Made by a program: the position numbers and the translations under genes. DNA of 64,000 bases from Bacillus sp. F19 (lineage in GTDB: Bacteria > Bacillota > Bacilli > Bacillales > Bacillaceae), in the NCBI GenBank assembly GCA_023823795.1, contig CP085710.1:2196001-2260000 (forward strand). The letters run 5' to 3'. This document shows positions 17,869 through 41,081 of the stretch, piece by piece (position 1 is the stretch's first letter; the number at the start of each line of letters is the position of its first letter). Below the pieces are notes generated by a model. It did no database searches and was not told the DNA's origin. It worked only from the letters and a program-made list of their open reading frames with translations.

Positions 17869-19203
17869 ATGGCTAAGTATACGAAAGAAGATATTGTACG
17901 ATTGGTACAAGAAGAAAACGTAAAATATATCCGTCTGCAGTTTACGGATATCCTGGGAACAATTAAAAACGTTGAGATTCCAGTAAGTCAGCTTGAAAAA
18001 GCTTTAGACAACAAATGTATGTTTGATGGATCTTCAATTGAAGGCTTCGTCCGCATTGAGGAGTCTGACATGTATCTTTTCCCTGATATCGATACATTCG
18101 TTATCTTCCCATGGACTTCTGAAAAAGGAAAAGTAGCACGTTTTATCTGTGATATTTACAGCCCGGATGGAACTCCATTTGACGGTGACCCTCGTAACAA
18201 TTTAAGACGTATGCTGAAAGAAATGGAAGACTTAGGATTCACAGATTTCAATCTTGGACCTGAGCCGGAATTTTTCTTATTCAAACTTGATGAAAAAGGC
18301 GAACCTACTCTTGAACTAAACGACCATGGCGGCTACTTTGATTTAGCACCAACGGATCTTGGCGAAAACTGCCGCCGCGACATCGTGCTTGAGCTTGAAG
18401 AAATGGGCTTTGAAATTGAAGCTTCCCACCATGAGGTAGCACCTGGACAGCATGAAATTGACTTCAAATATGCTGGTGCAGTAAAAGCTTGTGACGATAT
18501 CCAAACGTTTAAACTTGTTGTTAAAACAATTGCCCGCAAACATGGTCTGCATGCTACATTCATGCCAAAACCATTATTTGGTGTAAACGGATCTGGAATG
18601 CACATGAACTTATCACTATTCACAAACGGCGAAAATGCGTTTTATGACAAAAACAGCGACCTTGAATTAAGCGAAACAGCTAAACATTTCATCGCTGGCA
18701 TCATTAAGCATGCACCAAACTTTACGGCTGTTACAAACCCGACAGTTAACTCATACAAACGTTTAGTTCCTGGCTACGAAGCACCTTGCTATGTTGCTTG
18801 GTCAGCACAAAACAGAAGCCCGTTAATTCGTATTCCAGCTTCACGCGGTCTAAGCACTCGCGTAGAGGTACGCAGCGTTGACCCTTCAGCTAACCCATAC
18901 TTAGCAATGTCTGTATTGCTTGCAGCAGGACTTGACGGAATCAAAAACAAACTTGCAGCTCCAAAACCGATTGACCGCAACATCTATGTAATGACAAAAG
19001 AAGAGCGTGTAGAGAACGGAATCGTTGATCTTCCTGCTACACTTGCTCAAGCATTAGATCTATTAAAAACGGATGAAGTTATCATCAATGCCCTTGGCGA
19101 GCATTTGTTCGAGCACTTCATGGAAGCGAAAGAAATTGAATGGGATATGTTCAGAACTCAAGTTCACCCTTGGGAAAGAGAACAGTATATGTCTCAATAT
19201 TAA
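17869..19203 (+). CDS. glnA: Glutamine synthetase, type I-alpha
   Basis: 444 residues. Makes glutamine from glutamate, ammonia and ATP. Visible motifs: [10 protein letters not shown] (substrate loop), [11 protein letters not shown] (metal-binding Glu), [11 protein letters not shown], and [22 protein letters not shown] (ATP and substrate). No adenylylation-site insert, in line with the Gram-positive alpha type. AGGAGAGG lies ahead of the ATG. The final ~60 bases and the terminator are duplicated 21.8 kb downstream, so the gene end doubles as the border of an integrated element. Confidence 0.98.
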
Positions 19204-19243
19204 TACCTTCAAACCCCTGATGCCATTGGCGTCAGGGGTTTTT
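19145..19243 (+). repeat. Left copy of glnA-3'-end direct repeat (candidate attL)
   Basis: Covers the last 59 bases of glnA and its terminator. The copy at 40983-41081 has the same length with four differences: one synonymous third-codon change and three in the non-coding tail. By the usual logic of 3'-end integration, this copy would have been supplied by the element and the displaced original lies at the right. Confidence 0.8.
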
Positions 19244-19244
19244 T
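19211..19244 (+). terminator. Terminator of glnRA
   Basis: AAACCCCTGA-TGCC (19211-19224) pairs with GGC-GTCAGGGGTTT (19228-19241), followed by T residues. Copied at 41049-41081. Confidence 0.9.
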
Positions 19245-19245
19245 G

Positions 19246-19309
19246 TTTTTTGGTCAAATTGGTTAATTTCATTTCCAATTGATGTGCGACCAAAATTTGA
19301 CCAAAAAAT
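19246..19309. repeat. 15-base inverted repeat with GACCAAAA motifs inside the left border
   Basis: TTTTTTGGTCAAATT (19246-19260) and AATTTGACCAAAAAA (19294-19308) are perfect inverted copies; a further GACCAAAA lies at 19288-19295. Related direct GACCAAAA motifs occur inside the right border at 40854-40885. Such iterated short sites next to an attachment core resemble arm-type sites of a tyrosine recombinase; no integrase gene is left in the window to support this. Confidence 0.45.
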
Positions 19310-19315
19310 AATTAC

Positions 19316-19825
19316 TTTAAGACATTTTTCAACAAGCAAATGGAAAAGGCGCAAAAAACTCAGCTGTAGCATTGGCCACAGGAACAGACATCACTCGATC
19401 AGCTTCACGAGATGCAGGAGCAGCTATTGTGAACCTAGAAGATTACAAAAGTGGAAATGGTGAAGGGACTGACAATGGTAAAGTAACTAGTCAGGCTGCT
19501 CGAAATACTCATTCGAACGGTACTGTTTCGGAAGCGCGGAACTGGTTCAACTAAACAATCAGAAGGTAGAAAAAACGAAGAGGTCAAACCTTCTACTCAA
19601 CGAACATCAGGATCAAGTACTCATCAACCTTCCCAGCATCGCAAGCCGTCAGGAAGAATGGAAAGTCACCAAGAGGTAGCAGCTTCAAGAGAATCAGATA
19701 AACACATTACTCGATGGGAAGCTGAGCAGCAGATCAAAAAAAGAAATGCAAACCCTTCTACTGAAACGGTCAAGAGATCAGAAAGCAGGCAACCAAGAGC
19801 AAAGGAATCCAAACGACGAAAATGA
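19316..19825 (+). pseudogene. Truncated, frameshifted C-terminus of a ConG-like conjugation membrane protein
   Basis: The frame starting near 19322 reads FQQANGKGAKNSAVALATGT... and ends early at 19554. From about 19535 the next frame continues with a Ser/Gln/Lys-rich hydrophilic tail to TGA 19823-19825, so one frameshift separates two halves of a single C-terminus. Low-complexity tails of this sort end the large ConG/YddG (VirB6-like) membrane proteins of ICEBs1-type elements, and the next gene is a CwlT homologue, as in ICEBs1. The membrane part has been deleted up to the island border. Confidence 0.55.
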
Positions 19826-19916
19826 TGTTGGAGAAAAGCATTCTGACGCAATTACATTTGATTGGATGAGCAATCCCTAGTTGTTGCGTCAGAATGGCTT
19901 TCAGAAATGAGATCAT

Positions 19917-20954
19917 ATGCAAGGCGTGTTGAAGAAAGGTGCAAAAGTTGCTGGAACCGTTGCCGTTCTTAAAAACCCTCTTACGTGGATCATTGCAGGT
20001 ATCCTTCTTCTTCTTACATCTATTTTCGGAATCGCTTTATTCGTTTCTATCAGTTTGGGTGGTGAGAATCAATTTGAATCTGGAATGTCAGGCGAAGGTG
20101 CAGGAGGAACAGTGCAAGTGTCGGCTGAAGTCCTTCGATATGAACCCCTCATACGGAAATATGCAGAGGAATACGGGATTGGCGAGTATGTGGGGCTAAT
20201 TATGGCTCTTATTCAACAAGAATCAGGTGGAAGGCATTTAGACGTTATGCAATCGTCTGAATCGATCGGACTTCCACCCGGGGCTATCACGGACCCTGAA
20301 TACTCGATTCAAATTGGTGTGAAATACTTTGCAGACGTGATGAAACAAGCTAAAGGTGATGTTCATTTAGCTTTTCAGTCATACAACTTCGGTAACGGGT
20401 TTATTGGATTTGCATTAGAACGTGGGGGCTATTCGAAAGAAGTAGCAACCCAATTTAGTTCTATGATGGCTGCTAAAATGGGCTGGTACAGATATGGTGA
20501 CGTGGATTATGTTGAACATGTTCTTCGCTATTATGATACTGGAAATGGCAGTGTAATGGTTGTAGGCGACGGTACCCAATCGTTTGATGTAGAGGAAGTT
20601 CATACGATTATGAAAGAGTTTCTTGGCCGGCCTTATGTATGGGGTGGCAGAACACCAGCCGCAGGAGGTTTTGATTGTTCGGGATTGCTCGAGTACGCCT
20701 TTGCACAAGTTGGGGTCGACATGTACGGAACAGCTCAATCCCAATATGACAAAACCGTCCCGGTTCCTGAAGATCAAATTAAACCAGGGGATCTAGTCTT
20801 TTTTTCTACCTATAAGCCAGGTGCCTCTCACGTTGGTATGTATGTGGGAGATGATCAATTTATTAATGCAAATGGCAGCAATGGTACGTCTTATTCATCC
20901 GTTCAAGAATGGAAAGGCCTATATCCATTCTTAGGTTTTAGAAGGATTCAGTAA
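19917..20954 (+). CDS. cwlT: CwlT-like bifunctional conjugation wall hydrolase
   Basis: 345 residues (ICEBs1 CwlT has 329). An N-terminal membrane anchor (residues ~20-45) is followed by a lysozyme-like domain (~70-190: LIMALIQQESGGR with the catalytic Glu, then SYNFG) and an NlpC/P60 domain (~215-343: FDCSGLLEYAF with the catalytic Cys, later SHVGMYVG with the His). In ICEBs1-type elements this enzyme opens the wall for mating-pair formation. It is intact here although the rest of the transfer machinery is gone. Its ribosome binding site is weak. Confidence 0.9.
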   Translation: MQGVLKKGAKVAGTVAVLKNPLTWIIAGILLLLTSIFGIALFVSISLGGENQFESGMSGEGAGGTVQVSAEVLRYEPLIRKYAEEYGIGEYVGLIMALIQQESGGRHLDVMQSSESIGLPPGAITDPEYSIQIGVKYFADVMKQAKGDVHLAFQSYNFGNGFIGFALERGGYSKEVATQFSSMMAAKMGWYRYGDVDYVEHVLRYYDTGNGSVMVVGDGTQSFDVEEVHTIMKEFLGRPYVWGGRTPAAGGFDCSGLLEYAFAQVGVDMYGTAQSQYDKTVPVPEDQIKPGDLVFFSTYKPGASHVGMYVGDDQFINANGSNGTSYSSVQEWKGLYPFLGFRRIQ

Positions 20955-20967
20955 TGGGGGTGAAATC

Positions 20968-21504
20968 ATGGAACCAAACCAAAAGAAAAATTACATCTTG
21001 TTGATGTGCGGATTTGTAGCAGCTGCCATCATCGTCGTGTATGTCTTCAGCTTGCGCTCTCAGCTGCAGGAAATCAGAGCCAATCAGAGAAATTATGAAG
21101 AACAGATTAATTCGTTATCATCTGTTCAACAAAGCGAGGCTGTAAATACAAACCGTGAGTTCCTTGAATCGTTTTTCACCTATGAAACCACAGCTGAACG
21201 ATATAAAAAAATAGAACCTTTCATGACCGATCAAGGATTTAAAGCAACCCATCCTTCAGGGACAGAACTTCCGGATTCAGAAGAATCGGTAAAATCGTCC
21301 ATGGTAGGGCTGAAACCCTTTGAGTATCAGTCATCGAAAACGGAAGCAGAGTTTTTTAATGAGTTTAAACTCTCGACAGAGTTTAATAATGTGGCCAGCA
21401 CAGAAACGGTGATTGTCAAAACGTCCTTGATCTATGTGAAAGAGAAAGGTTGGAGAATTGATGATGTCGAGTATGTTGGCGAGTTAACAGGACGATCTAT
21501 GTAA
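20968..21504 (+). CDS. YddI-like conjugation-element protein
   Basis: 178 residues, 13 bases behind cwlT with GGGGTGA before the ATG. One N-terminal membrane segment (~9-28), a short coiled coil (~30-50), then a compact domain (~60-170) with alternating strands and a NVASTETVIVKTSLIYV region, like the periplasmic-facing domains of VirB8/YddI type proteins. In ICEBs1 yddI follows cwlT directly, so position supports the name. Role in transfer not established. Confidence 0.7.
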   Translation: MEPNQKKNYILLMCGFVAAAIIVVYVFSLRSQLQEIRANQRNYEEQINSLSSVQQSEAVNTNREFLESFFTYETTAERYKKIEPFMTDQGFKATHPSGTELPDSEESVKSSMVGLKPFEYQSSKTEAEFFNEFKLSTEFNNVASTETVIVKTSLIYVKEKGWRIDDVEYVGELTGRSM

Positions 21505-21560
21505 CGCTATTGAGTGCAGATGAAATATTCTTTTAAAAATTATTAAAATGAGGTGTAACT

Positions 21561-23750: not shown

Positions 23751-23755
23751 TTTAA

Positions 23756-23986: not shown

Positions 23987-24138
23987 TGTATTAATTCCCC
24001 ATTTTTATTAGTGATTACGATTTAATACGTTTCTTGTGTAGGAAAAGTTCCAACTATTGTAAATTTCTATTGAGTATCGGACCTGTTGATTTAGTCAACA
24101 TAAGCGATTTTATCGGTAATTAAAAAACTACCCTTTAA

Positions 24139-24432
24139 GGGGTCCAGCCAACTTTTTAACCCTTTTATACGTTAAGACATTTTCTACCATATAATGATAC
24201 ATAATCACCTAAATATATTCATTATGTATCATTTAATAATTAATAAATTCCACTAAAATTAATAGGAAGCAAGAAAACCCTTATGTATCAAGGGATAGCG
24301 ATTTTTAACCAATGATACATAAATACAATGAGTATCATTGACACGAAAGGAAGCTTAGCGTAATAAAAACTGACTTCCAACTTCCATAAATTGTCTTAGC
24401 GTATATTTCCGTTAAAATGTTGGCGGTACCCC
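24139..24432. mobile_element. Miniature Tn3-type element (TIME-like) with internal recombination-site motifs
   Basis: Bounded by two 38-base inverted repeats (24139-24176 and 24395-24432) that agree at about 29 of 38 positions, start GGGGTCC/GGGGTACC and end ACGTTAAG/ACGCTAAG, as Tn3/Tn4430-type ends do. The 294-base interior has no gene but holds TGATACATAA motifs: an inverted pair at 24193-24205 / 24221-24233 and further copies at 24281-24290 and 24313-24322. That is the arrangement of a resolution site (two inverted core sites plus accessory sites). A diverged inverted copy lies at 33769. No 5-base target duplication is visible. Confidence 0.7.
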
Positions 24433-24800: not shown

Positions 24801-26036
24801 ATGTTTTCTGATAATTATAAACAAACCGGAGGTAATCATTCGAATAATTATCAGGCGGAAAACATGCAGATACATCAATATAATGGAATATCTTACTCTG
24901 ATGTAAAACAACTTACACTTGATATTTTTGAGGCTAATTTCTATAGATTGTCTAAAGAGGCAAGCGAAACTGCTCTTCAACGTGTAGAAGAGTTGATGGA
25001 CAAATTTTTAGGAAAGTTGAGGAATCAAAGTCCACAATTATTAGATAACATGAATGATCCTGATGTGCAATATAACTTATATAATGTGCAAATGGCATAT
25101 GCTAGATCAGGAGACGAAAAGCTAGGAGAACGACTATTATTAATGCTTTTAGAGCGTATAAAAGAAAAAAACAGAAATTTGAAGCAATTAATTTTAAACG
25201 AAGCTATAGCAGTCCTACCAAGACTTACCGAGACACAATTAGACATACTAACACTTATATTTGTATATACAAAGGTAAAATTCAAAAATATAGTTTCCTA
25301 TGAAACTTTAGCAAGAAAGTTAGAGGAAAATATAAATCCTTTTTTGACAAATGATTCTAGTGCTAATGACTATGACTTTAGTGACTATTTATATTTAGAG
25401 TCTCTAGGTTGTATTAGGAGTAAATATGTTCCAAAATCTTTCACTAGAAATACATCTTATAAAATAACAAAGGATCTTACAGGTTTGTATATGGATCGTT
25501 ATCCGCTGTTATTTTCTAGTGGAGTGGATGTACTGACATTAGAAGGCATGCTTAATGGGTTTCGTTTAAATAAAAAAGAAAAAGCAAAGGTTGAAACATT
25601 ACTAATGTTTTGTATAACAACAAGCCTAAATCAGTATAATGGAAGGGTAAAGACACCAATATTGGACAATAAAGCAGTAGTAAATGAACTAATGGAATTA
25701 GGAGAAACAAAAGAACTATTTTATAATTATTCTTTACAATTAGATACTTCAATATTTGATGAAAAAATGGCAAAGCAGAAAGCAAAGGAATTAGAATTAC
25801 CAGAGGAGATAATAAATAAACTTTACAAGCTTTCTTGTGATTCTATAAAGGTTAATAATGCAAAAGAAATCTTAATGTCAATATACTCTAATTATGGTTT
25901 GTTCTATGAAAGATGGGAAAAATCTAATGTATGGGGTCTAACACAATTAGGAGAAGTACTTTCACACGCACACTACATTAGTAAAATCAAATCTGAGCCT
26001 AATTTAAGTAACTGGATGGATGGCAGGTATGGCTGA
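24801..26036 (+). CDS. Helical cytoplasmic protein of a two-gene unit (LPO_1073/Vpar_1526-like?)
   Basis: 411 residues with no signal or membrane segment. The first ~30 residues carry a Gly/Asn/Gln motif similar to that of the upstream protein; residues ~35-150 are helical with acidic-basic patterns, and residues ~150-330 look like a winged-helix or four-helix region without catalytic motifs. The overall look recalls a hypothetical family I know as LPO_1073/Vpar_1526, with low certainty. It is followed by an inverted-repeat element, preceded by a miniature Tn3 element and sits in an island, which suggests a mobile cargo role, for instance defence. Function not shown. Confidence 0.7.
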   Translation: MFSDNYKQTGGNHSNNYQAENMQIHQYNGISYSDVKQLTLDIFEANFYRLSKEASETALQRVEELMDKFLGKLRNQSPQLLDNMNDPDVQYNLYNVQMAYARSGDEKLGERLLLMLLERIKEKNRNLKQLILNEAIAVLPRLTETQLDILTLIFVYTKVKFKNIVSYETLARKLEENINPFLTNDSSANDYDFSDYLYLESLGCIRSKYVPKSFTRNTSYKITKDLTGLYMDRYPLLFSSGVDVLTLEGMLNGFRLNKKEKAKVETLLMFCITTSLNQYNGRVKTPILDNKAVVNELMELGETKELFYNYSLQLDTSIFDEKMAKQKAKELELPEEIINKLYKLSCDSIKVNNAKEILMSIYSNYGLFYERWEKSNVWGLTQLGEVLSHAHYISKIKSEPNLSNWMDGRYG

Positions 26037-26063: not shown

Positions 26064-26534
26064 AAAAGCGTAAAACCGCATTCTGTAGATTTGAAACAAA
26101 GTTGAACTGTTTATAAAAAGTCGCACCGTTTTACCCCTTTAGATAACCATTGTAAATGTCAAAATAAGATTGTACAAATTAGATTGAATAGTGATGTACA
26201 TATTTGATTTTATGGATGAATATTCCATTTTAATCATAGACCGTGATAACTTGACACGGAGCCTCTACGGGCATGAATTTCGAGACAAGAAGCCAGCAAT
26301 ATCAATAGCTGGCTCCACCTGACAAGGCTATCATGCCCGTCTCTCCATGTAAAGTTTCACTCAGGCAATCAGCCAAATTGTACATTCTTAAACAATCATT
26401 ATTGCACATAGTTAAATTAGCATTTGTAAACCATTTTCAAAGGGGTAAAACGGTACATCTTTTTTATAACATCGTGACTTTTTTTCAAATCTACATTAAG
26501 TTGTGTTTTCACTTTCGCCGTGGTTTACGCTCAT
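26064..26534. repeat. Long imperfect inverted-repeat element with central hairpins (MITE-like)
   Basis: Nested matching arms run from both ends inward: AGCGTAAAACC (26067-26077) with GGTTTACGCT (26522-26531), TGTAGATTTGAAA (26084-26096) with TTTCAAATCTACA (26483-26495), and a perfect 16-base pair at 26125-26140 / 26439-26454. In the centre are ACGGGCATGA (26267-26276) with TCATGCCCGT (26331-26340), and inside that AGCCAGC (26291-26297) with GCTGGCT (26308-26314). No gene is present. The whole ~470 bases could fold into one branched hairpin. Confidence 0.6.
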
Positions 26535-26571
26535 CTTGAAAGCTATGTTTTTTCCTATGTTTTCAATCAAT

Positions 26572-26605
26572 AAAAGAGCGCTGAAGATGCCCTTCAGCGC
26601 TTTTA
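26572..26605 (-). terminator. Terminator of the DNA ligase gene
   Basis: GCGCTGAAG (26578-26586) pairs with CTTCAGCGC (26592-26600), flanked by AAAAGA and TTTTA. It overlaps the ligase stop codon. Confidence 0.75.
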
Positions 26606-27436
26606 TTGTGCCGTCCATTTCTCGAATGATGGGATACGTAGATAGCCCTTTTTGGCTAGGTTGCGATATTTCACAACCCCTTTTAATTTTGGGTCCAAAT
26701 AAATAAAATCATCCGTTTCTGTCTGGATATGTTTTTTATATTCCGCATATAATTTTTTTCGGTCTGCTGGTTTCATAAATTCCATTAAGCCAGCAGGTGA
26801 TCCATCTTCAAAAGAGAGCAGCACACCAAATTCTTTTTTGCGCAAGCCAGTGATCAATATGTTTTCATACTGATAGTTGATTACTTTCAGCCATTGATCA
26901 GAGCGAGTACCAGGACGATACTTTGAATCAGCTTTCTTTAAAACGATCCCTTCAAGACCTTGTTCCTTGATCAAATCAAAGTATTGACTGCCGTGGCCTT
27001 CTATATGCTGCACATAAGCAATTCTATTGTCTGTAGGAAGAATGCTTTCCAGTAGCATTTTTCGTTCAATTAAAGGCTTATTCATCATGTTTTCGTTCTT
27101 ATAATATAAAATATCAAACACGCAATATTGAATGGCATGCAATGATTTTGAAGACTGAAATCGTTCCATCATTAGTTCCCAATTGGGTTTGCCTTTGTGA
27201 TCCGTTACAATAATTTCACCATCGAGAATAGTTCCGGAAGGAATATCGATCGTATGCAGCTCTTTGAATTTCGAGCTTACATCGTTTTTGAGCCGTGTAT
27301 ATAATTTCACCTTTCCATCGAATTTAGAAAGGGTTATTCTGATGCCATCAAGCTTCAATTCCGTTAAAAACTTTAAATCAGAAAAAGCTTCATTCGATTT
27401 ATGAAGCAACATAGGAGAAATATACAAATAAACCAC
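26603..27436 (-). CDS. ligB: ATP-dependent DNA ligase, LigB/YoqV type
   Basis: 277 residues, the size of the short ATP ligases of Bacillus prophages (YoqV of SPbeta). Nucleotidyltransferase motifs: I KLDGIR (adenylated Lys at ~residue 28), III CVFDILYY, IV EGIVLKK, V WLKV. A short OB-like C-terminus ends ADRKKLYAEYKKH...LRIPSFEKW. GTG 27436 is used as start; a TTG three codons later is possible. It probably seals nicks in the element or host DNA. A broken relative of its C-terminus lies outside the island at 46024-46190. Confidence 0.88.
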   Translation of the reverse strand: MVYLYISPMLLHKSNEAFSDLKFLTELKLDGIRITLSKFDGKVKLYTRLKNDVSSKFKELHTIDIPSGTILDGEIIVTDHKGKPNWELMMERFQSSKSLHAIQYCVFDILYYKNENMMNKPLIERKMLLESILPTDNRIAYVQHIEGHGSQYFDLIKEQGLEGIVLKKADSKYRPGTRSDQWLKVINYQYENILITGLRKKEFGVLLSFEDGSPAGLMEFMKPADRKKLYAEYKKHIQTETDDFIYLDPKLKGVVKYRNLAKKGYLRIPSFEKWTAQ

Positions 27437-27622
27437 CCCATCTAATTATAATGGTTTAATAGAACATATTAATTAGTGGAGTATTGGAATTGCAGGGGAA
27501 AGTTGATAAAAATATAGCTCTATCTAACCAACAATTATGACCTTCAGGTCAAAAAGGAAAGTCTTTAGGCTTCGATCTTCGATCGAATTAAAAGCTGTCG
27601 GTGGTCCTGTTTGTTTGTCTGC

Positions 27623-27781: not shown

Positions 27782-27788
27782 AGGTGAC

Positions 27789-27902: not shown

Positions 27903-27906
27903 TCCG

Positions 27907-27943
27907 GAGAGCCGGGGTGAGGGAAACCTTGCCTCGGCTTTCT
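27907..27943 (+). terminator. Terminator behind the 37-residue gene
   Basis: GAGAGCCGGGGTGAGG (27907-27922) pairs with CCTTGCCTCGGCTTTC (27928-27943) using a few G-T pairs. Confidence 0.65.
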
Positions 27944-30401: not shown

Positions 30402-30677
30402 GATAAAACCCTTGATAAATAAGCAGTTAAAAGGATCTTCGATTTGATATTATCCCCTTATAGTAGACAGTAAAAAGAAAGGATTGTACTGTCTTCTATG
30501 GGGGGATTTTTTCATGGGGAAAATTAGAACAACCTATACAAAAGAAATTAAGCTAAAAGCGATTAATTTATACCAAAAGAAAGATATGGGTATTAGATCT
30601 GAATCGCTACACTAAGTTAGACAATTATTTTAAGGTCAAGTAGACTAACGGAAACAATGAAAAAAGGAGATTCTACT

Positions 30678-30962
30678 ATGACTAAACGAGAGCGCCGAAC
30701 ATTCACACAAGAATTTAAAGAACAAATCGTACAACTATACCTAACTGGAAAGCCACGTAAAGAAATTATAAGAGAGTACGATTTGACGCCTTCCTCGCTG
30801 GATAAATGGATCAGTCAACAACGCAACTCAGGTTCGTTTAAAGAAAAAGATAATTTAACGCCTGATCAAGTGAAATTAGCTGAGGTAATGAAGAGAAATA
30901 AACAGCTAGAAATGGAGAATGATATTTTAAAGCAAGCCGCGCTGATCATGGGACGAAAGTAA
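30678..30962 (+). CDS. IS3 element B orfA (copy 1)
   Basis: 94 residues from ATG 30678 (AAAGGAG ahead). Helix-turn-helix of IS3 OrfA type (KRERRTFTQEFKEQIVQLY, EYDLTPSSLDKWISQ) followed by a leucine zipper (RNKQLEMENDILKQAALIM). orfB follows in the -1 frame, so a fused OrfAB made by frameshifting is expected. Confidence 0.9.
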   Translation: MTKRERRTFTQEFKEQIVQLYLTGKPRKEIIREYDLTPSSLDKWISQQRNSGSFKEKDNLTPDQVKLAEVMKRNKQLEMENDILKQAALIMGRK

Positions 30963-30964
30963 AT

Positions 30965-31798
30965 GTGATTCGAAACAACACCCACAAATACTCGGTATCA
31001 GCAATGTGTAACGTCCTCGAGATTCCAAGAAGCACGTATTATTACGAAGAAAAAATTCACCCTCAAACAGATGAGGTAACCCTCAAGGTGATTGAAATCT
31101 TTCATGCCAGCCGCCAAAACTATGGGACGCGGAAAATTAAAGTGGAACTCCAGAAATGTGGATACCAGGTTTCAAGAAGACGGATTGGCAGAGTGATGAA
31201 AGAGCAAGGTCTAGTGTCCACTTATACCATTGCCCAGTTCAAGCCCCATGCATCAACGTGTAACGAATCGAAACAAAAGAATGAGCTTAACCGTGAGTTC
31301 AGACAAAAAGCAGCTTACAACGTGGTTGTCAGTGATTTAACGTATGTGAGAGTCGAGAAAAAATGGCATTACATATGTGTATTTGTTGATCTTTACAATC
31401 GGGAAATTATCGGGTACAGTGCTGGTCCGCAGAAGGACGTACAGCTTGTGTACCGAGCCATTTCTTCAATTGAAATTGATCTAAGCAAGATCAAGCTATT
31501 TCACACGGATCGAGGAAGTGAATTCAAGAATAAATTGATTGACGAAGCCCTAGCAACATTTAAAATCAAGCGTTCTTTGAGTATGAAAGGCTGTCCATAT
31601 GATAATGCGGTGGCGGAGGCAACATTTAAAATTATCAAGACAGAGTTTGTGAAAAAACGCCACTTCGAATCATTATCCGACTTAAATAGAAAACTATTTG
31701 ATTATGTGAACTGGTTTAATGGAACAAGAATACATGGTACATTGGGTTATTTAAGTCCAAGAGAATACAAAAATTTACACCTTAAAAAAACTGTCTAG
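30965..31798 (+). CDS. IS3 element B orfB transposase (copy 1)
   Basis: 277 residues from an in-frame GTG; the natural product is probably the OrfAB fusion. HTH_21 region (NTHKYSVSAMCNVLEIPRS), then the rve core: VVSDLTYV (Asp), LFHTDRGSEF (Asp), NAVAEATFKIIKTEF (Glu). All DDE residues are present, so the enzyme may be active. Confidence 0.92.
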   Translation: MIRNNTHKYSVSAMCNVLEIPRSTYYYEEKIHPQTDEVTLKVIEIFHASRQNYGTRKIKVELQKCGYQVSRRRIGRVMKEQGLVSTYTIAQFKPHASTCNESKQKNELNREFRQKAAYNVVVSDLTYVRVEKKWHYICVFVDLYNREIIGYSAGPQKDVQLVYRAISSIEIDLSKIKLFHTDRGSEFKNKLIDEALATFKIKRSLSMKGCPYDNAVAEATFKIIKTEFVKKRHFESLSDLNRKLFDYVNWFNGTRIHGTLGYLSPREYKNLHLKKTV

Positions 31799-32039
31799 TT
31801 TAGTGTTGACATACCAATCAATTTCCAAAGAGTTAGGGATTGGATATACAACTATACAAAGATGGATAGCTCACTATAAAAGAGAAGGAATTCAGGGGTT
31901 AGAGGAAAAGAGAGGAACATCTTGTAGCCCACTTAAAGGTAGACCTAAAAAAGACTATGAAAGCGATACAGAAAAAATAAGTCGATTAGAAGCAGAGAAT
32001 GCCTATTTAAAAAAGCTCTTAGATGCGAAAAGGAGGAGG

Positions 32040-32911
32040 ATGCAGGAAAAGAAAAATCAATAGAATACAAAATCATTCATGAGCTTAAAAATCAATTTAC
32101 TATCAGTATTTTATGTATAATTGCAGGCGTATCAAAGAGTGGCTATTACAAATGGCTAAAACGTCAGAGTAACCCTACTAAAAGGGATTTAGATGATCAA
32201 TCGATTGTATCTAGAATTATTGAATGCCAACAAGACCCTGATATTAATTGGAGCTACGGTTATCCAAGAGTTCGAACTTGGCTAAAAAAAGAGTATGGAC
32301 TGAAAGTCAACCATAAGAAAATTTATCGTTTAATGAAAACGAATGGTATTCAAGCAAAGATACGAAAAAAAAAGTGGAAGCACTTTGGGCGTAAAGAAAA
32401 ATATGTCCTTTCCGATAATTACTTAAATAGAGAATTTTCAGCTAAACGCCCGAATGAAAAATGGGTAACAGATATAACCTACTTACTTTTTAATGGGAAA
32501 AAAATCTATTTATCTTCGATATTAGACCTTTATAGCAATGAGATTGTCTCATATAAAAGACCTAAGGCTAGTAGCTGATACTGTAAAAGAGGCCATAAAA
32601 AAAAGAGACGTAAAAGGACTCCTATTACATAGCGATCAAGGATTCCAGTACACCTCAATAAGATATAACCAACTATTAAAAAGATACAATATTAAGCAAA
32701 GTATGTCTAGAAAAGGAAATTGTTTAGATAACGCATGTATGGAGAGTTTTTTTAGTCACTTTAAAACTGAATGTTTTTACCGATACCAATTTGAGACCTC
32801 GAAGAGGTTAAGACAGCAGTAAAAAATTATATTAAGTTTTATAACAATAAACGTTTTCAAAAAAAATTAAATAACCTTAGCCCTACTGAATATAGGGCTA
32901 AGGCTGCCTAA
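32040..32911 (+). pseudogene. orfB transposase of IS3 element A, frameshifted
   Basis: DDE transposase (KWVTDITYL with the first Asp, LLLHSDQGFQYTS with the second, CMESFFSHFK with the Glu). The frame breaks near 32555 (after SYKR) and again near 32812 (after the FETSKRLR part), the last piece ending LSPTEYRAKAA with TAA at 32909. Degenerate, so this element cannot move on its own. Confidence 0.8.
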
Positions 32912-33120
32912 TAAGTGCACCTTTTAATTAAATGTCTACTTGACGGGGGTAAGACCAATTTGAAGCTCCTTTTTTTGTTTTTTGCAAGCAGAAAATACAG
33001 AGAATTGCAGCGAAAAATGCAGAGACCTGCAAGCTCTCTTTTAATCTAATTTTCGTTGTGTAACTTAACAGAAGAAAGGGCATTTTTCAGCCTATAACTT
33101 TCCCCAGTAAATGCTATTAC

Positions 33121-33642
33121 GTGAGCAAGAAGGGCATTGTCATGAAAGAACGAAGTAAGCGTTTTAGCGCGATGAACGTTTATATTTCTAATCTTCCTGC
33201 GGAAGTAGTCCCGACGGGACATATTCACGATCTTTACTCCCTACGTTGGCAGATTGAATTACTGTTTAAAACATGGAAATCCTTCTTTAAAATTGACCAT
33301 TGTAAAGAAATCAAACGAGAGCGATTAGAATGCCATCTCTATGGCCAACTGATTGGCATCCTTCTCTGTTCTTCCACTATGTTTCAAATGAAGCAATTAC
33401 TTCTTGATAAGAAAAAAAGGGAACTAAGTGAGTATAAAGCCATTTATATCATCAAGGATTACTTTCCTCTTTTATTTAGGGCTATACAAAAAAGCACTCA
33501 AGAGTTATTAAAGATTCTGCTTCGCCTGTTCAACCTCCTACAGAAAAACGGACGAAAATCTCATCGGTATGAGAAGAAAACAGTCTTTGATATCTTGGGT
33601 GTTGTTTATCAGTATACCATGTGCAAAAAGAAAGCAGCATAG
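33121..33642 (+). pseudogene. C-terminal fragment of IS4-family transposase
   Basis: 173 residues. The [20 protein letters not shown] segment with the catalytic Glu and the Y-(2)-R-(3)-E-(6)-K pattern is typical of IS4/IS231 transposases; the N-terminal Asp residues are missing. The frame has GTG at 33121 without a ribosome binding site. Stretch 32958-33120 shows nothing else of note. Confidence 0.75.
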
Positions 33643-33768
33643 CGCTAAAAAAACGACCTGTTTTTTGGCATATTTGGTATTTGGCATGCCTTTCTTTAGT
33701 CAAACATAGAGGGTTTCTTGTGGAAACGGCTCTACTCTAAGCATTCTTTGGGTTAGCTTGATGGACAT

Positions 33769-34012
33769 GGGGTACCGCAAACATTTTGACGAAAATATAC
33801 GTTAATACAATTTATGGAAGTTAAAAGCCGGTTTTTATTACGCTAAAAGTTGCTATCCCTTGGTACGCTAAGTTTTTTTGATAGTCTAGTATATTCATTG
33901 GAACTTCATAATTTTAGAATGATACTTAATGTATAGATTAGATCTACCATGTATCAGATAATGGAAAAAAATGTATTGACGTATAAAAAGGTTAAAATGT
34001 TGTCTGGACCCC
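33769..34012. mobile_element. Second miniature Tn3-type element, inverted relative to the first
   Basis: 38-base ends at 33769-33806 (GGGGTACCGC...) and 33975-34012 (inverted, GGGGTCCAG...) correspond to the two ends of the element at 24139-24432 in reverse order. The 244-base interior keeps degenerate copies of the TGATAC motif (near 33920 and 33949). No gene. Together the two elements bracket 24139-34012. Confidence 0.65.
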
Positions 34013-34032
34013 TTATGGAAGACAAGAATATA

Positions 34033-34655
34033 AAAGACGGATTGGTCGAGTGATGAAAGAGCAAGGCCTAGTGTCCACTTATACCATTGCCCAGTTCAAG
34101 CCCCATGTCTCAACGTGTAATGAATCGAAGCAAAAGAATGAGCTAAACCGTGAGTTCAGACAAGAAGCAGCTTACGACGTGGTTGTCAGTGATTTAACGT
34201 ATGTGAGAGTCGAGAAAAAATGGCATTACATATGTGTATTTGTTGATCTTTATAATCGGAAAATTATCGGATACAGTGCTGGTCCACAGAAGGACGCACA
34301 GCTTGTGTATCAAGCGATTTCTTCGATAAAAATTGATCTAAACAAGATCAAGTTATTTCACACGGATCGTGGAAGTGAATTCAAGAATAAATTGATTGAC
34401 GAAGCCTTAGAAACGTTTGAAATCAAGCGATCTATGAGTATGAAAGGCTGCCCATATGATAATGCGGTTGCGGAGGCAACATTTAAAATTATCAAGACAG
34501 AGTTTGTGAAAAAACGCCACTTCGAATCACTATCCGACTTAAAGAGGGAACTATTTGATTATGTGAACTGGTTTAATGGAACAAGAATTCATGGAACATT
34601 GGGTTATTTAAGCCCACGAGAATACAAAAATTTACACCTTAAGAAAACTGTCTAG
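34033..34655 (+). pseudogene. orfB fragment of IS3 element B, copy 3
   Basis: About 200 residues of the catalytic domain from MKEQGLVSTYTIAQFKPH to the end; the three DDE residues are still present, but the N-terminal DNA-binding part is gone. Confidence 0.8.
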
Positions 34656-34876: not shown

Positions 34877-36601
34877 TTACGTGAGTCGCAGTTTCGCGGC
34901 GTGACCGAAGCCGATCGAAGAGGAGAAAGGGTGGACCGCGTCCTTCGAGAACTTTTCCGTAAGCAGAGGCATTTTCGGCTGGATATCAGGCGGTCGGGTG
35001 TTGGCCTGGAGGTAGGCCGTGCTGAAGAAAGCCAGTGACCAGCGTCCAGAGGGGTCGCGCCATTCCTCGGCCCAGGCATTGCCGACGGCGGGTGGGGCGA
35101 TCACGGTCTTAGGCAGCGCCGCGAGCGCAGGAAAAAGTATGGCGGGTCGAACGTTGTCAGTCGTATACCCCGAATGATACATACGCAGCCGACGGTTGCT
35201 TATGCCGGCATTCAACCACGCGATCAGCGACTTTTCGAGGGTATTCCGTTTGATGCCGGTTCCTTTTTCGTTAAGTTCGAAGTCGAGGTCCCATATCTCC
35301 CGCCAGACGTCGGCGAACTGCTTGGTAGGCAAAGCGCCGGGGACGCCAAAAAGCGCCGGAGGGTATTTAACCTTGTCCACAAGTTCGGGTTTGCCGATTA
35401 AGGAAAACACCCCTTTAATGGAGTTGCTGAAACCGGCTACCGTGACATTCCGGATCTTCGGCCGCGGCTGATTGACTGCGCTGGAGGCGGGTGGTCTGGT
35501 CACAACGGGTAATTGGTTCTCGGGTGCAGAGGCACCCTGCCATCGGCTGAAGTCAGAGCCCGTCGCGTAGCCGAAGCCGTGCAGGAACTGCGTGATTTCA
35601 AGCAGTAACCTGTGGATTCCCTCCTGGGAGTTGAACGGCTGCCACATCTGCCTGGATTCTATGTCGGGTACGGCGGGGAAAATCGGCATGACGATGATCG
35701 CGGGCTTTTTGGATGCGATCGATGCCTGCGCCAGCACTGCGTTCTCGAACAGGTGGCGGTAGGCGAGATTGACGTAGGGCTGCCTCATGGTGTTCTCCGG
35801 GAAAACGGTATAGGGGTAGTTGACCCGGAAGGGAAAGGGCGATCGGGGATATTCCCCATTCGCCGTGCTGGGGCTGAAGTAGACGATGTAGTCCAGCCCA
35901 TCGAACGGTATCGCGCCGGTTAGGGCGGGGGCCAAGACCGCTATCAGAAAGCGGGGCTCCTTTAGACGCTTGCCGGTGACACTACCGTACTCAAGCCAGA
36001 GGAAGCCGCCGTTGGCGTCCAGCCTGACCGGAAGGTCTGTGGTGTTAAAGCGGTCCCATCCATTGGCCGCCGCGGTCTTGAGCATGGAGAAATTCCCGAT
36101 ACGCCGCCTTCTCGGCAGGCCCCCGCTTATCGGGGCATCTTCCAGCGTGCGCACCGTGGTGGTTTGATTCAACAACGGGCCGAGGATGGCGTAGTACTTG
36201 GAACCGCTTACGCCGCCCCGGTAGAACACTCCGGGCTTGTCGCCCTTGGTCTTGTCGTTATATGGCGGAGCGGTGATCGGCGCCTGCTGGACCCGACCCA
36301 TGATGACCTTCAGGTCGGCGGAGGTTGGAGTCATGATCAGCTCACAGCCGCGATTGTCCCAGTAATAGGGGACGGTGCCGAGTGTCACCGTCACGCGCTG
36401 GGTAACGTAGTCAGGATGCTCCACCGTTATAGTCAGCCTTTTCGTATCCGGGGGTGGCGCGGGCATGACGTATGTCTGTGAGGTATGGATGGTATGGGAG
36501 TGAACCCCGGAGGAGTCCTCCCGTTCTATTGTCAACGCCGCGTCGCTTGCCAGTGGCCCGTTCAGAACGTCGACCATCTCAATTTTAAACTGTATTCCCA
36601 T
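34877..36601 (-). CDS. GC-rich foreign gene, 574-residue protein of unknown function
   Basis: Codon composition is strongly GC-rich, in sharp contrast to the AT-rich surroundings, and the change is abrupt at the start codon; the leader is a Bacillus-style AAAGGAGG 8 bases before the ATG. Residues 1-95 look like a beta-sandwich (alternating strands, PAPPPDTKRLTITVEHPDY). The middle has YYAILGPLLNQTTT and a DGLDYIVYFSP strand; VAGFSNSIKGVF (~residue 390) resembles a nucleophile elbow with Ser but lacks the usual second Gly. No signal peptide. Unrecognised; possibly a lipase-like or structural protein from a high-GC donor. Confidence 0.75.
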   Translation of the reverse strand: MGIQFKIEMVDVLNGPLASDAALTIEREDSSGVHSHTIHTSQTYVMPAPPPDTKRLTITVEHPDYVTQRVTVTLGTVPYYWDNRGCELIMTPTSADLKVIMGRVQQAPITAPPYNDKTKGDKPGVFYRGGVSGSKYYAILGPLLNQTTTVRTLEDAPISGGLPRRRRIGNFSMLKTAAANGWDRFNTTDLPVRLDANGGFLWLEYGSVTGKRLKEPRFLIAVLAPALTGAIPFDGLDYIVYFSPSTANGEYPRSPFPFRVNYPYTVFPENTMRQPYVNLAYRHLFENAVLAQASIASKKPAIIVMPIFPAVPDIESRQMWQPFNSQEGIHRLLLEITQFLHGFGYATGSDFSRWQGASAPENQLPVVTRPPASSAVNQPRPKIRNVTVAGFSNSIKGVFSLIGKPELVDKVKYPPALFGVPGALPTKQFADVWREIWDLDFELNEKGTGIKRNTLEKSLIAWLNAGISNRRLRMYHSGYTTDNVRPAILFPALAALPKTVIAPPAVGNAWAEEWRDPSGRWSLAFFSTAYLQANTRPPDIQPKMPLLTEKFSKDAVHPFSSSIGFGHAAKLRLT

Positions 36602-37250: not shown

Positions 37251-40200
37251 TTGTCAAACATTAAGAGAATAACTAATTTATCCGACTATCAATCCGTACT
37301 ACCTTACGCTAGTGAGCTCTTTGGCGTATATCATTCCTTGATCGGTTGGAATTCTAAAAGGCAGCTCGACCGAATCAAAAACAATATTAAATATGAAAAT
37401 AACGCTCTATTATCTCGATTGAGTCCTTATTTGGAAGACAAGGCAAATATCAAGTTCGATAAAAAATGTTCAATTTCGGCTCCCGACTTGGAGCCTGCGG
37501 GATTTGCTGCTCCTAAGTTAATTCCCCAGGATTCCATTGTACTTCAGCAAATCAGCGAAAAAATTTATTATTTTGGAAAGGTTCCAAAGAAGGAAGATGA
37601 GTGGCGGCACCTTGTGAACAATGACTTTCTTACGGAAATCCTTAGAACCAAAGTCATCGACCATTACAATGAAGTTTTAGCCAGCTGCTGCGAACAAAAC
37701 GACACGGAGGAAAAAAAGGAAAAATGTAAAGAAGAGGTGAGGAGTGGTATCGCCAATGAAACAGTGATTGCAGGGGTCATTAAAGAGCTAGTTGTAAATG
37801 GTCGCGTCACTGAATTAAACAATATCTTTTTTAAAAAATTGGACATGGACTCAAGGTACTCTTTTCTTCAAGCGTTAAACAAGAAAGACATGGATTTTAC
37901 GGACCCTTACCTGACCTTTGATCCAAAAAAAGACGTAAAAAATGCTGCATTGTCCCCGCTTGGTATTGTCCATTTATTCCGACAGTATTTCTTTGAGTTG
38001 GACACGTTTCTTGGGACGCCAACCGGCCACGTATGGCTAAGTCCTGGATCAACAGTAGAACTGGTAGAGGTTAGTACTCGGAGGACTACTACCGAAAAGA
38101 CCGTTGAAACATTTATTGAAACCACGAAAAAAAAGGAGACCAGTATAACGGACCAAGATGACATAAGTGATGCGGTTAAGGAAGAAAACAAAGAAGATCT
38201 TAAACTTGGTTTCTCAACCACCGTGAATCAATCGTGGGGTACTGGAGACGCTTCCGCCACAGCAAGCCTTAACATGGACAAAACCCAACAGTCCGCCAGG
38301 GAAAAAACTCATAAAAGGATGAGAACACAGAGCGAAAAGCTATCAAGCGAAATACGTGAAAATTATAAATCGACTTTTAAAACTGTTACAGAGGTAACAG
38401 ACACGTCAAGTAAACGGTATGTTATAGCCAACAACACAAAAAAGCTAATTAACTATGAATTACGTAGAAAGATGAGACAGGTTGGTGTACAAATCCAAGA
38501 TATTGGTACTTATCTATGTTGGGAGACCTTTGTTGAAGATCCCGGTGAAGATCTTGGACTTGCGGAATTGATTCATTACGCCCAACCGACCGATCTCGTG
38601 CCGGTGCCGGACCCGACAAAAATAGCCATTCCTGACGATCAAGTGATCCCTTTTACAGCAAATGCGAAATGGGATTTCGACGACCAACGACAACACGGAT
38701 TTGTAACACTTACGACGATCGATCCCCCGAAGGCACCAGACGGTTTTGAAGTTGTCGTTGTTGAAGGAATCATTCCGGCCGCACAGATCTCAGGTACTGG
38801 TGATGATTTCCACGGAGTTTGGGGTTTCGGGGCTCGGTTTACGCCAACTAAACAGCTTGAAATTGGTGTCATCACGGGTCCTGGTGGCCTTGAATGGGAC
38901 AAACGCGTAGACTTTGTAGTCGGTGGAACATTGAGATATACAGCGAGCACAGCCAAAAGAGAAGAAATCGCAGCCGCCAACAAAAAGAAGATAGAAGAGG
39001 GTATTGCAGCAACCAACGAAAATAACCGTAAAACCAAAGAAGCTTTTTACAAGGCTGTTAAGGAGCGTGTCGAATTTGCCAGCGGGATCAACAAGCGCAA
39101 ATTTGAAGAGTTGCGAGAAGAAGAACGCATCATTATTTACCGTAGGCTCATACGTTCCTTGATGACTGATGCTCAGTACGACAATGTGGTAAAAGGTAGC
39201 GAGCACGGCCGTCACGTTCTCTCGGAATTGATAAACTCAATCTTTGATATTGATAAGATGCTGTACTTTGTAGCTCCAGAGTGGTGGAAGCCCCGTAAGC
39301 AAAGGCAGAAATTTAAGACTTTGTCCGACATCCAGACACAGCTTGACGGTAACCTCGTTCCCTGGCCAGATAGTCCTCCGCGGAAAGACAATTACCTGAT
39401 TACTGAAAAATCGCAACCAGCACCTTTGGGCAGTTCGCTCGGATGGCTTTTGCAATTAGACGGGGACAATTTGCGAAATACCTTCCTTAACGCACCCTGG
39501 GTTAAAGCAGTTATCCCCGTACGGCCCGGAAAGGAGAAGGCTGCTATAAATTGGCTACAAAACGCTAATATAGAGGGGGTTGATGGCCTGAAATGTGATT
39601 ACGATGCTTCAGAAGATGAACTAAACCAAATCAAAACGAGGTTGGGACTAGAACCTGAAGCGACAGTCACCATACAAAACGCAATCGACTATCTTTGCTC
39701 TCAAGTTGCAGAGAAACATGAGGAGTCCAATAAAGTCAACACTTATCCGGAAACTGAGCTAAACGTTGATAACAAGGTTACTTCAACTCCAGTTGAAAAG
39801 GTCTTTGAGCATGGTTTTTATCCACTACAAAATGGCTTCCGTGTAGACCCGAACGATCCAAATCGGGATCCTAACAATAAAGATAAGAACTTCCAAGTTT
39901 TCGACCAATGGATTGAAGTACTACCGACTGATCAAATGGTCCCTGTCGAGGTAACCTACAACCCGCTTACAGGGAGACAAATTCCCATAGAATGTGAACG
40001 AAAGTCTGGAATATCTGAAGTAATGGAAATAATCGTCGATAGTACCATTAAAGATACATCTATTGCACCTTATCCCGGGCATTTTGTGAATATAGGTGAT
40101 AAGGGAATGGTCGTGAAAAAGATTCAGGCTCGCCTCAATGAAGCGAATATTGAAGTTAAAATTGATGGTATTTTTGGCCCGAACACTCAGATGAAGGTAA

Positions 40201-40343
40201 AAGAATTTCAAAAAAGATTCGGGCTTCAGGTTGACGGAATAGTTGGTTCTGAAACTTGGCGCACTCTCTTTAACTCTGATTTAAAAGCAAGTCCTCATTT
40301 ACGAAGTCTTCGGTCAGATGCGTTGGATAATCCGGAGAGTTAA
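37251..40343 (+). CDS. 1030-residue protein with C-terminal peptidoglycan-binding domain
   Basis: TTG 37251 follows AAAGGGG. No signal peptide. Residues ~1-270 are mixed helical. Residues ~275-380 form a low-complexity Thr/Lys/Glu helix (TRRTTTEKTVETFIETTKKK). About 385-450 matches a motif found in large bacterial proteins of unknown function (KKLINYELRRKMRQVGVQIQ, then CWETFVEDPGEDLGLAEL). A beta-rich section follows, then a long helix (~580-650). Residues ~960-1015 are a PG_binding_1 domain (IGDKGMVVKKIQARL, DGIFGPNTQMKVKEFQ, DGIVGSETWRTLF). It could be a surface-targeted effector or a particle component; the name stays open. Confidence 0.8.
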   Translation: MSNIKRITNLSDYQSVLPYASELFGVYHSLIGWNSKRQLDRIKNNIKYENNALLSRLSPYLEDKANIKFDKKCSISAPDLEPAGFAAPKLIPQDSIVLQQISEKIYYFGKVPKKEDEWRHLVNNDFLTEILRTKVIDHYNEVLASCCEQNDTEEKKEKCKEEVRSGIANETVIAGVIKELVVNGRVTELNNIFFKKLDMDSRYSFLQALNKKDMDFTDPYLTFDPKKDVKNAALSPLGIVHLFRQYFFELDTFLGTPTGHVWLSPGSTVELVEVSTRRTTTEKTVETFIETTKKKETSITDQDDISDAVKEENKEDLKLGFSTTVNQSWGTGDASATASLNMDKTQQSAREKTHKRMRTQSEKLSSEIRENYKSTFKTVTEVTDTSSKRYVIANNTKKLINYELRRKMRQVGVQIQDIGTYLCWETFVEDPGEDLGLAELIHYAQPTDLVPVPDPTKIAIPDDQVIPFTANAKWDFDDQRQHGFVTLTTIDPPKAPDGFEVVVVEGIIPAAQISGTGDDFHGVWGFGARFTPTKQLEIGVITGPGGLEWDKRVDFVVGGTLRYTASTAKREEIAAANKKKIEEGIAATNENNRKTKEAFYKAVKERVEFASGINKRKFEELREEERIIIYRRLIRSLMTDAQYDNVVKGSEHGRHVLSELINSIFDIDKMLYFVAPEWWKPRKQRQKFKTLSDIQTQLDGNLVPWPDSPPRKDNYLITEKSQPAPLGSSLGWLLQLDGDNLRNTFLNAPWVKAVIPVRPGKEKAAINWLQNANIEGVDGLKCDYDASEDELNQIKTRLGLEPEATVTIQNAIDYLCSQVAEKHEESNKVNTYPETELNVDNKVTSTPVEKVFEHGFYPLQNGFRVDPNDPNRDPNNKDKNFQVFDQWIEVLPTDQMVPVEVTYNPLTGRQIPIECERKSGISEVMEIIVDSTIKDTSIAPYPGHFVNIGDKGMVVKKIQARLNEANIEVKIDGIFGPNTQMKVKEFQKRFGLQVDGIVGSETWRTLFNSDLKASPHLRSLRSDALDNPES

Positions 40344-40473
40344 TCAAAAGTTCCACTAAATCCCTGTTGTACAATAGGATTGATTCAGTAATCTACCCTA
40401 CCGATTGACAACTAAGCCATACGTACGGCAGGTCCTAGTATATACTTATCTTATTGAACAGTCCGTGAGTTAA

Positions 40474-40659
40474 GGAAGTGACGAAAATCCAGACGGCATG
40501 TTCTGTCTTGAAGGGGCCTCAGGATCGGTTGTCCTTGATATAGATTCTCCCACTCCTGTCGGATTACTGTGGGGAAAAATGTTCGGCGGAAGATGGGGGT
40601 TAATATCGCATATTCGTAATGTCGAATCACAACTTAAAATCAACATGGTATGGCAGTGA
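40474..40659 (+). pseudogene. C-terminal remnant of a trypsin-like serine protease
   Basis: Open frame after a TAA at 40471; reads DGMFCLEGASGSVVLDIDSP, then PVGLLWGK and a final strand. The G-x-SGS element followed by PVGLL is the end of chymotrypsin-fold proteases (usual GDSGS; the Asp is Ala here). The N-terminal half with His and Asp is absent. Stretch 40660-40852 shows no gene. Confidence 0.5.
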
Positions 40660-40852
40660 CGGAGTTGTCATTAACCGGGAAGAGCTCGAATTCAAGCGTT
40701 GTCGATAAAAAGTCAATCACGTAAATATACTACATGATCCTAGTTTGACACGAGCGACCTCCTCGATAACACAGAAATAATTTCATGAAGCATAAGTAGG
40801 GTTATTCTCAATTTGTTACCCTTACCGGAACCAATAAGTAAGGTAGAATGAA

Positions 40853-40886
40853 TGACCAAAATCTCGACCAAAAAATGACCAAAATT
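40853..40886. repeat. GACCAAAA direct repeats inside the right border
   Basis: TGACCAAAAT (40853), CGACCAAAAAAT (40866) and TGACCAAAATT (40876). Similar motifs lie inside the left border at 19287-19309. Confidence 0.5.
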
Positions 40887-40982
40887 ATTTAAAAAGATAG
40901 GATATATTTTGAAAACCTAAAAAAGTAATCTGCTGATATTACAGCATTTAATCCATATTTTAAAAAGAAATAAAAGGGTGAA

Positions 40983-41081
40983 ATATGTTCAGAACACAAG
41001 TTCACCCTTGGGAAAGAGAACAGTATATGTCTCAATATTAATACCTGCAAACCCCTGATGCCGTTGGTGTCAGGGGTTTTT
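40983..41081 (+). repeat. Right copy of glnA-3'-end direct repeat (candidate attR)
   Basis: Repeats the end of the glnA coding sequence, its TAA and its terminator, starting ATATGTTCAGAAC, with 95 of 99 bases equal to 19145-19243. There is no glnA reading frame in front of it. The terminator would still work and insulates the next gene. Confidence 0.85.

Follow-up and report, generated by a model that had tools for sequence, protein, structure and literature searches.

The 3' end of glnA as a probable integrase attachment site and starting point of an accretion zone in Bacillus sp. F19

In Bacillus sp. F19, the glutamine synthetase gene glnA is followed by an interval of about 22 kb that is bounded by two copies of a short direct repeat, and it is the origin of this interval that is treated here. 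All positions count from the first base of the window, i.e. the whole stretch of 64,000 nt from contig CP085710.1 that was analysed. The glnA gene (17869..19203, + strand) has been left complete, with an open reading frame (ORF) of 444 aa and both Pfam domains, Gln-synt_C and Gln-synt_N. The last 59 nt of the gene plus the glnA terminator make up the left copy of the repeat (19145..19243, + strand), and the second copy lies at 40983..41081 on the same strand, which places the glnA 3' end in direct order on both sides of the interval. A preliminary description of this DNA had reported such a 99-base repeat about 21.8 kb apart, with no glnA in front of the second copy, and measurement bears this out, as the copies are 96% identical at a spacing of 21,838 and no glnA ORF precedes the second copy in the ORF list. 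With a 111-base query, both copies are recovered from the F19 genome (E 1.9e-52 and 2.1e-40), and they are the only ones of more than 90% identity therein. The intrinsic terminator (19211..19241, + strand) can fold on both strands (-24.7 and -21.2 kcal/mol, with 0 of 200 shuffles being as good on either strand), which suits two converging genes. The left copy is followed by a left arm (19244..19311), which contains the motif GACCAAAA at 19288 and 19299 and its complement at 19248, and the second copy is preceded by a right arm (40761..40982, + strand) with the same motif at 40854, 40866 and 40877. These motifs, already noticed inside both borders, are candidate arm sites of an integrase; only one of the six + strand sites in the window lies elsewhere (29675), as does one further complement (34691). 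The hexamer GGGCGC, in contrast, is of little help: it is indeed absent from the interval in a plain count, but with only 2 occurrences in the preceding 19.1 kb and 8 in the following 22.9 kb it is too sparse to carry much weight as a border marker. A tRNA or tmRNA gene as target was rejected, since no tRNA gene was found in the 64-kb window.

Directly behind the left arm, only the last codons and the stop codon of an integrase gene are present (19312..19331, - strand; frame read by eye), and all the rest of this gene is gone from the window. In a genome of the same genus, G006, a stretch of 5.8 kb that comprises glnA, terminator, left arm and these last codons is 97.95% identical to the window, with 77 of 77 positions matching at 19244-19320, and the likeness ends at 19331. 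There, G006 continues with a tyrosine integrase gene that reads towards glnA and is near-complete except for a frameshift near its end, and its open part contains the Phage_integrase, SAM-like and arm-binding domains. The window has the 3' end of a conjugation operon instead. As G006 keeps the integrase gene exactly where the window jumps to the conjugation tail, a deletion or join would have removed the integrase in the window. The other border has its counterpart in G006 as well (90% identity over 40761-41081, and 92% over 141 nt of the right arm). In principle, the second copy could be an ordinary duplication of the glnA end that arose without any site-specific recombination, and such duplications may occur, as genome G024 has two copies of the glnA end only 2.2 kb apart (G024:C34:261298 and 263550), whose likeness extends further up glnA and which perhaps represent such a case. 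In the window, however, the likeness stops inside glnA at the core of the site, arms are present at both ends, many genera have this core next to an integrase, and the arms shared with G006 as well as the integrase remnant disfavour a plain duplication, which we thus regard as hardly conceivable. The view that the glnA 3' end is an integrase attachment (att) site, of which the repeats represent the two copies that enclose an element, is upheld by the att pair and by the arms and integrase of G006.

How far the inserted DNA extends can be judged from eight genomes of the same genus, including F19 itself, in all of which the glnA end was found. A conserved gene for a 485-aa protein without Pfam family is likewise present in all eight. 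It stands directly behind glnA in G002, G003 and G007, which have an empty site (in G002 on the other strand, directly behind the glnA terminator), and it adjoins lexA in G001. In the occupied genomes, its distance from glnA is 3.7 kb (G004), 10.6 kb (G001), 39.5 kb (G005), 235 kb (F19) and 403 kb (G006). A second core on the same strand follows glnA in four of the eight genomes, after about 10.5 kb in G001, 21.8 kb in F19, 39.5 kb in G005 and 196 kb in G006, and in G001 and G005 the 485-aa gene comes just behind it; the second match in G004 is the terminator hairpin alone, on the opposite strand. The terminators differ in type. G002 has CCCCTCAGC..GCTGAGGGG behind glnA, and G005 has this type at its far copy and CCCTGATACC..GGTGTCAGGG behind glnA, the latter type being found behind glnA also in the other occupied genomes (F19, G001, G004 and G006). 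The terminator in the window thus matches those at occupied sites and differs from that of the empty site in G002, and because both window copies carry this element type, the far copy does not represent the original host end. Judged from terminator type and host gene distance, the second copy would rather be an internal junction to a former neighbour, the next, truncated element. Behind the far copy of G006 lie another kind of left arm, with TTGACCAC repeats, and a scrap of a second integrase, which makes this a tandem junction; the G001 island contains a repeat of this arm. The ten proteins scanned from the G005 island comprise transporters, oxidoreductases and other metabolic proteins, and no integrase was found in this island. 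The occupied site of G004 (G004:C1:2457964-2461674) has the TTGACCAC arm behind glnA, no second core, and lactate dehydrogenase and permease-like genes by eye.

These comparisons bear on the simplest picture, in which one discrete 22-kb island is bounded by the two copies and ends at 41081, with the host resuming at 41132. In favour of it, the two copies are unique in the genome above 90% identity, stand in direct order and have arms inside both. Yet the gene at 41129 had no match at E 1e-10 in any of the seven other genomes of the genus, the three empty strains have the 485-aa gene and not, as had been expected, the 41132 gene after glnA, this neighbour is 235 kb away in F19, which contradicts a discrete island unless the 213 kb behind the second copy are due to a separate later rearrangement that moved the host gene off, and the terminator of the second copy is of element type. 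Such a discrete island is therefore very unlikely. As the 485-aa gene is 235 kb from glnA and the 41129 gene occurs in F19 alone, the window from 19.2 kb onwards lies inside one accretion zone, and the interval would thus open a 235-kb accretion that separates glnA from the 485-aa gene by lexA. The empty site of the relatives would then correspond to the hotspot as a whole, beyond these 22 kb. Taken together, the interval is very probably the decayed remnant of an element that was inserted at the glnA 3' end by a tyrosine integrase and became part of an accretion; the att pair, the arms, the integrase remnant, the empty and occupied relatives and the integrase clade with its target, all legible at the level of sequence, argue for this, and from them we infer which recombination events took place and in what order, what the arm sites do and that the remnant is immobile today.

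Several observations weigh against this attachment and accretion reading. No core copy is seen at the true host border of F19, and no glnA-type integrase beyond scraps was found in this genome, whose other integrases (181, 129 and 101 bits) have no glnA end nearby. The scraps themselves, two of integrases (177.3-177.6 and 228.9-229.1 kb from the window start) and one of an arm (231.4 kb), lie further along the 235-kb gap and speak for the accretion. Neither a left arm nor an integrase follows the second copy at 41082, and nothing closely similar to the conjugation tail adjoins the integrase of G006. The absence of a glnA-type integrase beyond scraps makes present mobility doubtful, and the conjugation tail, lacking a counterpart in G006, may be a later capture. 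A third core copy, about 73-74% identical, is present on the 507-kb second contig of F19 (C2:145265-145368), and no glnA-type integrase was found in the 40 kb around it. In its surroundings (C2:145203-145460), a sequence resembling the right arm lies on one side, and left-arm likeness with GACCACC sites on the other, which is the layout of a phage-type attachment site (attP) or of a tandem junction. Among 81 genomes of the family, an exact pattern of the glnA end matched in 58 and matched at least twice in 13, of which three belong to the genus of F19 (F19 itself, with one of its three matches on the second contig, G001 and G006), nine to another genus and one to a third; this exact pattern missed the second copy of G005 by one base.

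Is glnA the target of this one integrase only, or of a whole clade? A five-row alignment of integrases, in which the broken G006 gene is represented by its open part (row 5), was run against 84,980 species with one genome per species, giving 26 loci, and against viral contigs, giving at least 80 loci. Each scan drew its candidates from two short peptide patterns seeded with glnA-type integrases, and the shares are thus not a census. Each locus was scored by its best likeness to a 17-letter protein sequence within 350 nt behind the integrase, with scores above 40 taken as hits and 920 shuffles reaching at most 29. Among the matches listed, integrases of at least 50% identity have the glnA 3' end 102-144 nt behind them at 35 of 37 judgeable loci (20 of 22 in genomes, 15 of 15 in viral contigs), whereas below 50% identity none of nine does (0 of 4 and 0 of 5, respectively). 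The 35 hits include four partial ones that score 60 (L137, L182, L183 and L214, three of them with an internal stop) and the near-duplicates L182/L183 and L230/L231, and only 15 of the 72 viral loci of at least 50% identity could be judged, as the other 57 have less than 150 nt after the integrase. The two misses are L138, with 65% identity and no glnA end, and L144, where the contig ends inside the site and RTQVHQWERDQYMTLY is still legible. A tRNA scan of 13 loci (the distant ones and L138) found a tRNA gene within 200 nt behind the integrase in four (L157, L235, L239 and L240). Within the genus of F19, there are 14 integrase places, of which the two pieces of the G006 gene have a glnA end nearby; the other 12 (up to 321 bits, one being a scrap in the F19 gap) have none within 1.5 kb (best score 30), and two of the 11 that were scanned lie near a tmRNA or tRNA-Val gene.

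Elements with a glnA end and an adjoining integrase, for which a database search had been proposed, are thus found across many genera, according to record titles in Bacillus, Metabacillus, Domibacillus, Lederbergia, Thalassobacillus, Ectobacillus, Heyndrickxia, Tenuibacillus, Jeotgalibacillus, Terribacillus, Mesobacillus, Piscibacillus and Alkalibacillus, and further in Cytobacillus (a separate record) and Paenibacillus (by eye). Outside the genus, seven of the regions examined in the family genomes (g9, g14C2, g16, g21, g40, g44 and g56) have an integrase aligning over at least 380 residues beside the glnA end. The core tracks variants of the glnA end, such as HPWERE and HQWERD, and the arm motifs vary across the family (GACCAAAA, TTGACCACC, CCCACAAAA). 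The expectation that glnA would be an uncommon target therefore does not apply to Bacillales, where the whole integrase clade uses it. In Domibacillus mangrovi (NZ_MRWQ01000005.1; L153 and L154), two integrase loci on the same strand are separated by about 69 kb, each is followed by a glnA end, and the match of the second lacks the first 37 residues of the query.

Elements that carry intact integrases of this clade bear on the kind of element that may have come first. The elements of B. halotolerans, M. halosaccharovorans and Cytobacillus spongiae (L135, L136 and L258) have glnA followed after about 110-120 nt by an integrase gene that reads towards glnA, and the former two have a second core at the far end, as in the window. 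Unlike the remnant in the window, their integrases are open, and the first two elements contain phage structural genes. When 14 proteins were scanned, terminase or portal plus tail genes were recognized in the islands of M. halosaccharovorans (G056), G044 and B. halotolerans (G016), and these three typed integrase-bearing islands are, by gene content, prophages. In C. spongiae, glnA and the integrase are 108 nt apart, with phage-like regulators and early genes behind. The 690-kb C. spongiae record was considered as an integrative plasmid and rejected as such: besides glnA it carries mutL, miaA and hfq, and is therefore read as a piece of chromosome. With the second copy as DNA query, two records were found among plasmids and one among phages. 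Bacillus phage SPbetaL5 (OQ921345.1), isolated as a phage and 127 kb in size, has in succession arms, the glnA end, a terminator, again arms and the integrase gene, i.e. a tyrosine integrase 59.8% identical to the query stands beside an attP with the glnA 3' end; its arm motif is TTGACCACC, whereas the window element has GACCAAAA.

In B. glycinifermentans GO-13 (G014), glnA, left copy and integrase are on one contig and two cores are 17.2 kb apart on another. The record NZ_MF996511.1, a circle of 33,117 bp that is catalogued as a plasmid of B. glycinifermentans KBN06P03352, is 99.57% and 99.97% identical to these stretches over 27.7 of its 33.1 kb. At its site 18932 (reverse complement), the sequence before the outermost GO-13 core is joined to the terminator, arm and integrase behind GO-13 glnA, and its other site equals the internal core of the GO-13 arrangement. 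The core and first terminator bases at the two sites differ from what simple excision of the GO-13 arrangement would give, so KBN06P03352 and GO-13 are not identical there. The record looks like a tandem pair of glnA elements excised by one integrase, perhaps as a transient circle, with a stable plasmid or an assembly product as alternatives. Variants between circle and genome contain a hint that the crossover point is 5' of CAAGT in the core, with the proviso that the two strains differ otherwise. Among the genes of the circle are two TPR/MFS pairs and one that is annotated as T7SS LXG effector.

The content of the interval does not speak clearly for either kind of founder. Behind the integrase remnant, the broken 3' end of a gene for a large conjugation membrane protein lies in two pieces (19378..19822, + strand; 42% and 49% identity to a plasmid protein annotated as hypothetical), which we take to be ConG-like, followed by a gene for a cell-wall hydrolase with lysozyme-like and NlpC/P60 domains (19917..20954, + strand), presumably CwlT-like, and by one for a small protein (20968..21504, + strand; 71% identity to a plasmid protein in the same place). 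The hydrolase has solved relatives (4hpe and 4fdy) and is 82.6% identical to a Pseudalkalibacillus plasmid protein encoded within a Tcp-type conjugation operon, and the tail keeps the plasmid gene order. That this tail, in order, starts right after the integrase remnant would agree with an integrative and conjugative element (ICE), in which integrase and conjugation operon were inserted at glnA as one unit. However, in G006, whose arms are the same, the integrase is followed by other genes, the typed islands are prophages, the closest operons are seen on plasmids (the search for these genes covering the plasmid collection only), and among 14 interval proteins scanned with Pfam or NCBIfam (from 59 ORFs of at least 60 aa listed for 19100-42000) there was no match to a relaxase, coupling protein or VirB4-type ATPase. 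An abundance of conjugation genes, as initially described, was an overstatement, as only the tail of one operon is present. We consider an ICE as first element improbable, but the same 14 proteins contain no terminase, portal or tail proteins either, and our confidence in any identity of the first element, phage or ICE, is low. Of four interval proteins compared with PHROGs, one has a binding domain like that of endolysins, and another (24801-26036) matches a phage family of unknown function, the latter being a further point against an ICE.

The remaining features are of mixed type. An ATP-dependent DNA ligase gene (26603..27436, - strand) is shared with G006, in which 26498-27940 has a counterpart of 94% identity some 6 kb ahead of the second att. 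Two DUF2690 proteins are also encoded in the interval. An insertion-sequence (IS) block (30657..34655, + strand) contains an IS3 transposase (30965-31798), an IS4-type fragment below the curated cut-off (33121-33642) and part of a second IS3 copy (34050-34655), recognized by a 93% repeat. Inverted repeats at 24136-24432 and 33769-34015 (78 nt at 88% and 67 nt at 84%, 9.3-9.7 kb apart) are perhaps the ends of related IS copies. The 574-aa ORF at 34877-36601 looks foreign, with up to 59% GC in an interval of 39% GC, and had no match in Pfam, PADLOC or PHROGs. A 1030-aa ORF with a TTG start (37251-40343) has a peptidoglycan-binding C-terminus and no family match in its remainder. None of ten proteins from 24.8-58.2 kb of the window matched defence genes in PADLOC.

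Mechanistically, the remnant-and-accretion reading can be pictured as follows. On the attP, a copy of roughly the final 60 bases of glnA would have been combined with the element's own terminator and with an integrase gene directed towards it. The integrase would bind to the arm sites as well as to the core, which lies in the glnA end, and the exchange would occur inside the core. Such a gene-sparing exchange is the established logic of phage integrases. As the attP carries glnA end, terminator and converging integrase gene, insertion would rebuild a complete glnA with last codons and terminator supplied by the element, and the old 3' end would be pushed to the far side. Later elements could insert at the rebuilt site and stack, and loss of an integrase would strand a segment, which then may leave only together with a neighbour. 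The interval would be such a stranded segment, in which the integrase was lost by the jump into the conjugation tail and into which IS elements moved. Whether this can be generalized is a question on which we are evenly divided: glnA may be a tRNA-like target in Bacillales, whose 3' end would be the dedicated site of one integrase lineage in at least 14 genera; this lineage, found in siphoviruses, in islands and in an SPbeta-like phage, would swap the last codons and terminator at each insertion and build a glnA-lexA zone of up to 400 kb, with stacked segments, some without integrase, that leave as composite circles. For Bacillus-like genomes, this gives a border rule, i.e. islands and prophages should be looked for behind glnA, where tRNA-based searches would miss them. 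It would also account for the long variable glnA-lexA stretch, suggests an excised island in what is catalogued as a plasmid, and points to integrases with a conserved, gene-sparing target as possible chromosomal insertion tools in laboratory Bacillus.

In the literature, no description of glnA as attachment site was met among the matches listed from titles and abstract starts of open-access papers, which is weak evidence, as most subscription journals are outside this scope. A prophage of B. anthracis may lie next to glnA. The consulted part of a review on SPbeta relatives gives spsM, kamA and intergenic sites and does not mention glnA (PMC8270828), and the consulted part of a paper on B. anthracis names no target gene for the prophage (PMC1475869). 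With regard to the conjugation tail, the plasmids NZ_CP156675 of Pseudalkalibacillus hwajinpoensis and pNIB353_2 of Bacillus subtilis have the same order of membrane protein, hydrolase and small protein, but within a longer conjugation operon (non-mobilizable and mobilizable, respectively, in PLSDB), whereas the window has only its 3' tail.

Temperate phages and islands are known to insert at the 3' ends of conserved protein genes, such as icd, guaA, prfC and rpsI, and to restore them. The glnA system resembles these in that the attP holds the end of the target gene, direct repeats stand at both ends and the integrase gene lies by the left copy. It differs from them in its target, and in that the element brings its own two-strand terminator between glnA and the converging integrase gene. 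Tandem accretion and cis-mobilizable elements (CIMEs) have been described for remnants of streptococcal ICEs, and the interval in the window is CIME-like: att sites flank it on both sides, it lacks an integrase and a working transfer module (the conjugation tail remains), and other elements adjoin it. CIMEs are mobilized by an intact element on the same site, and the composite circle of B. glycinifermentans may be an analogue of such a mobilization.

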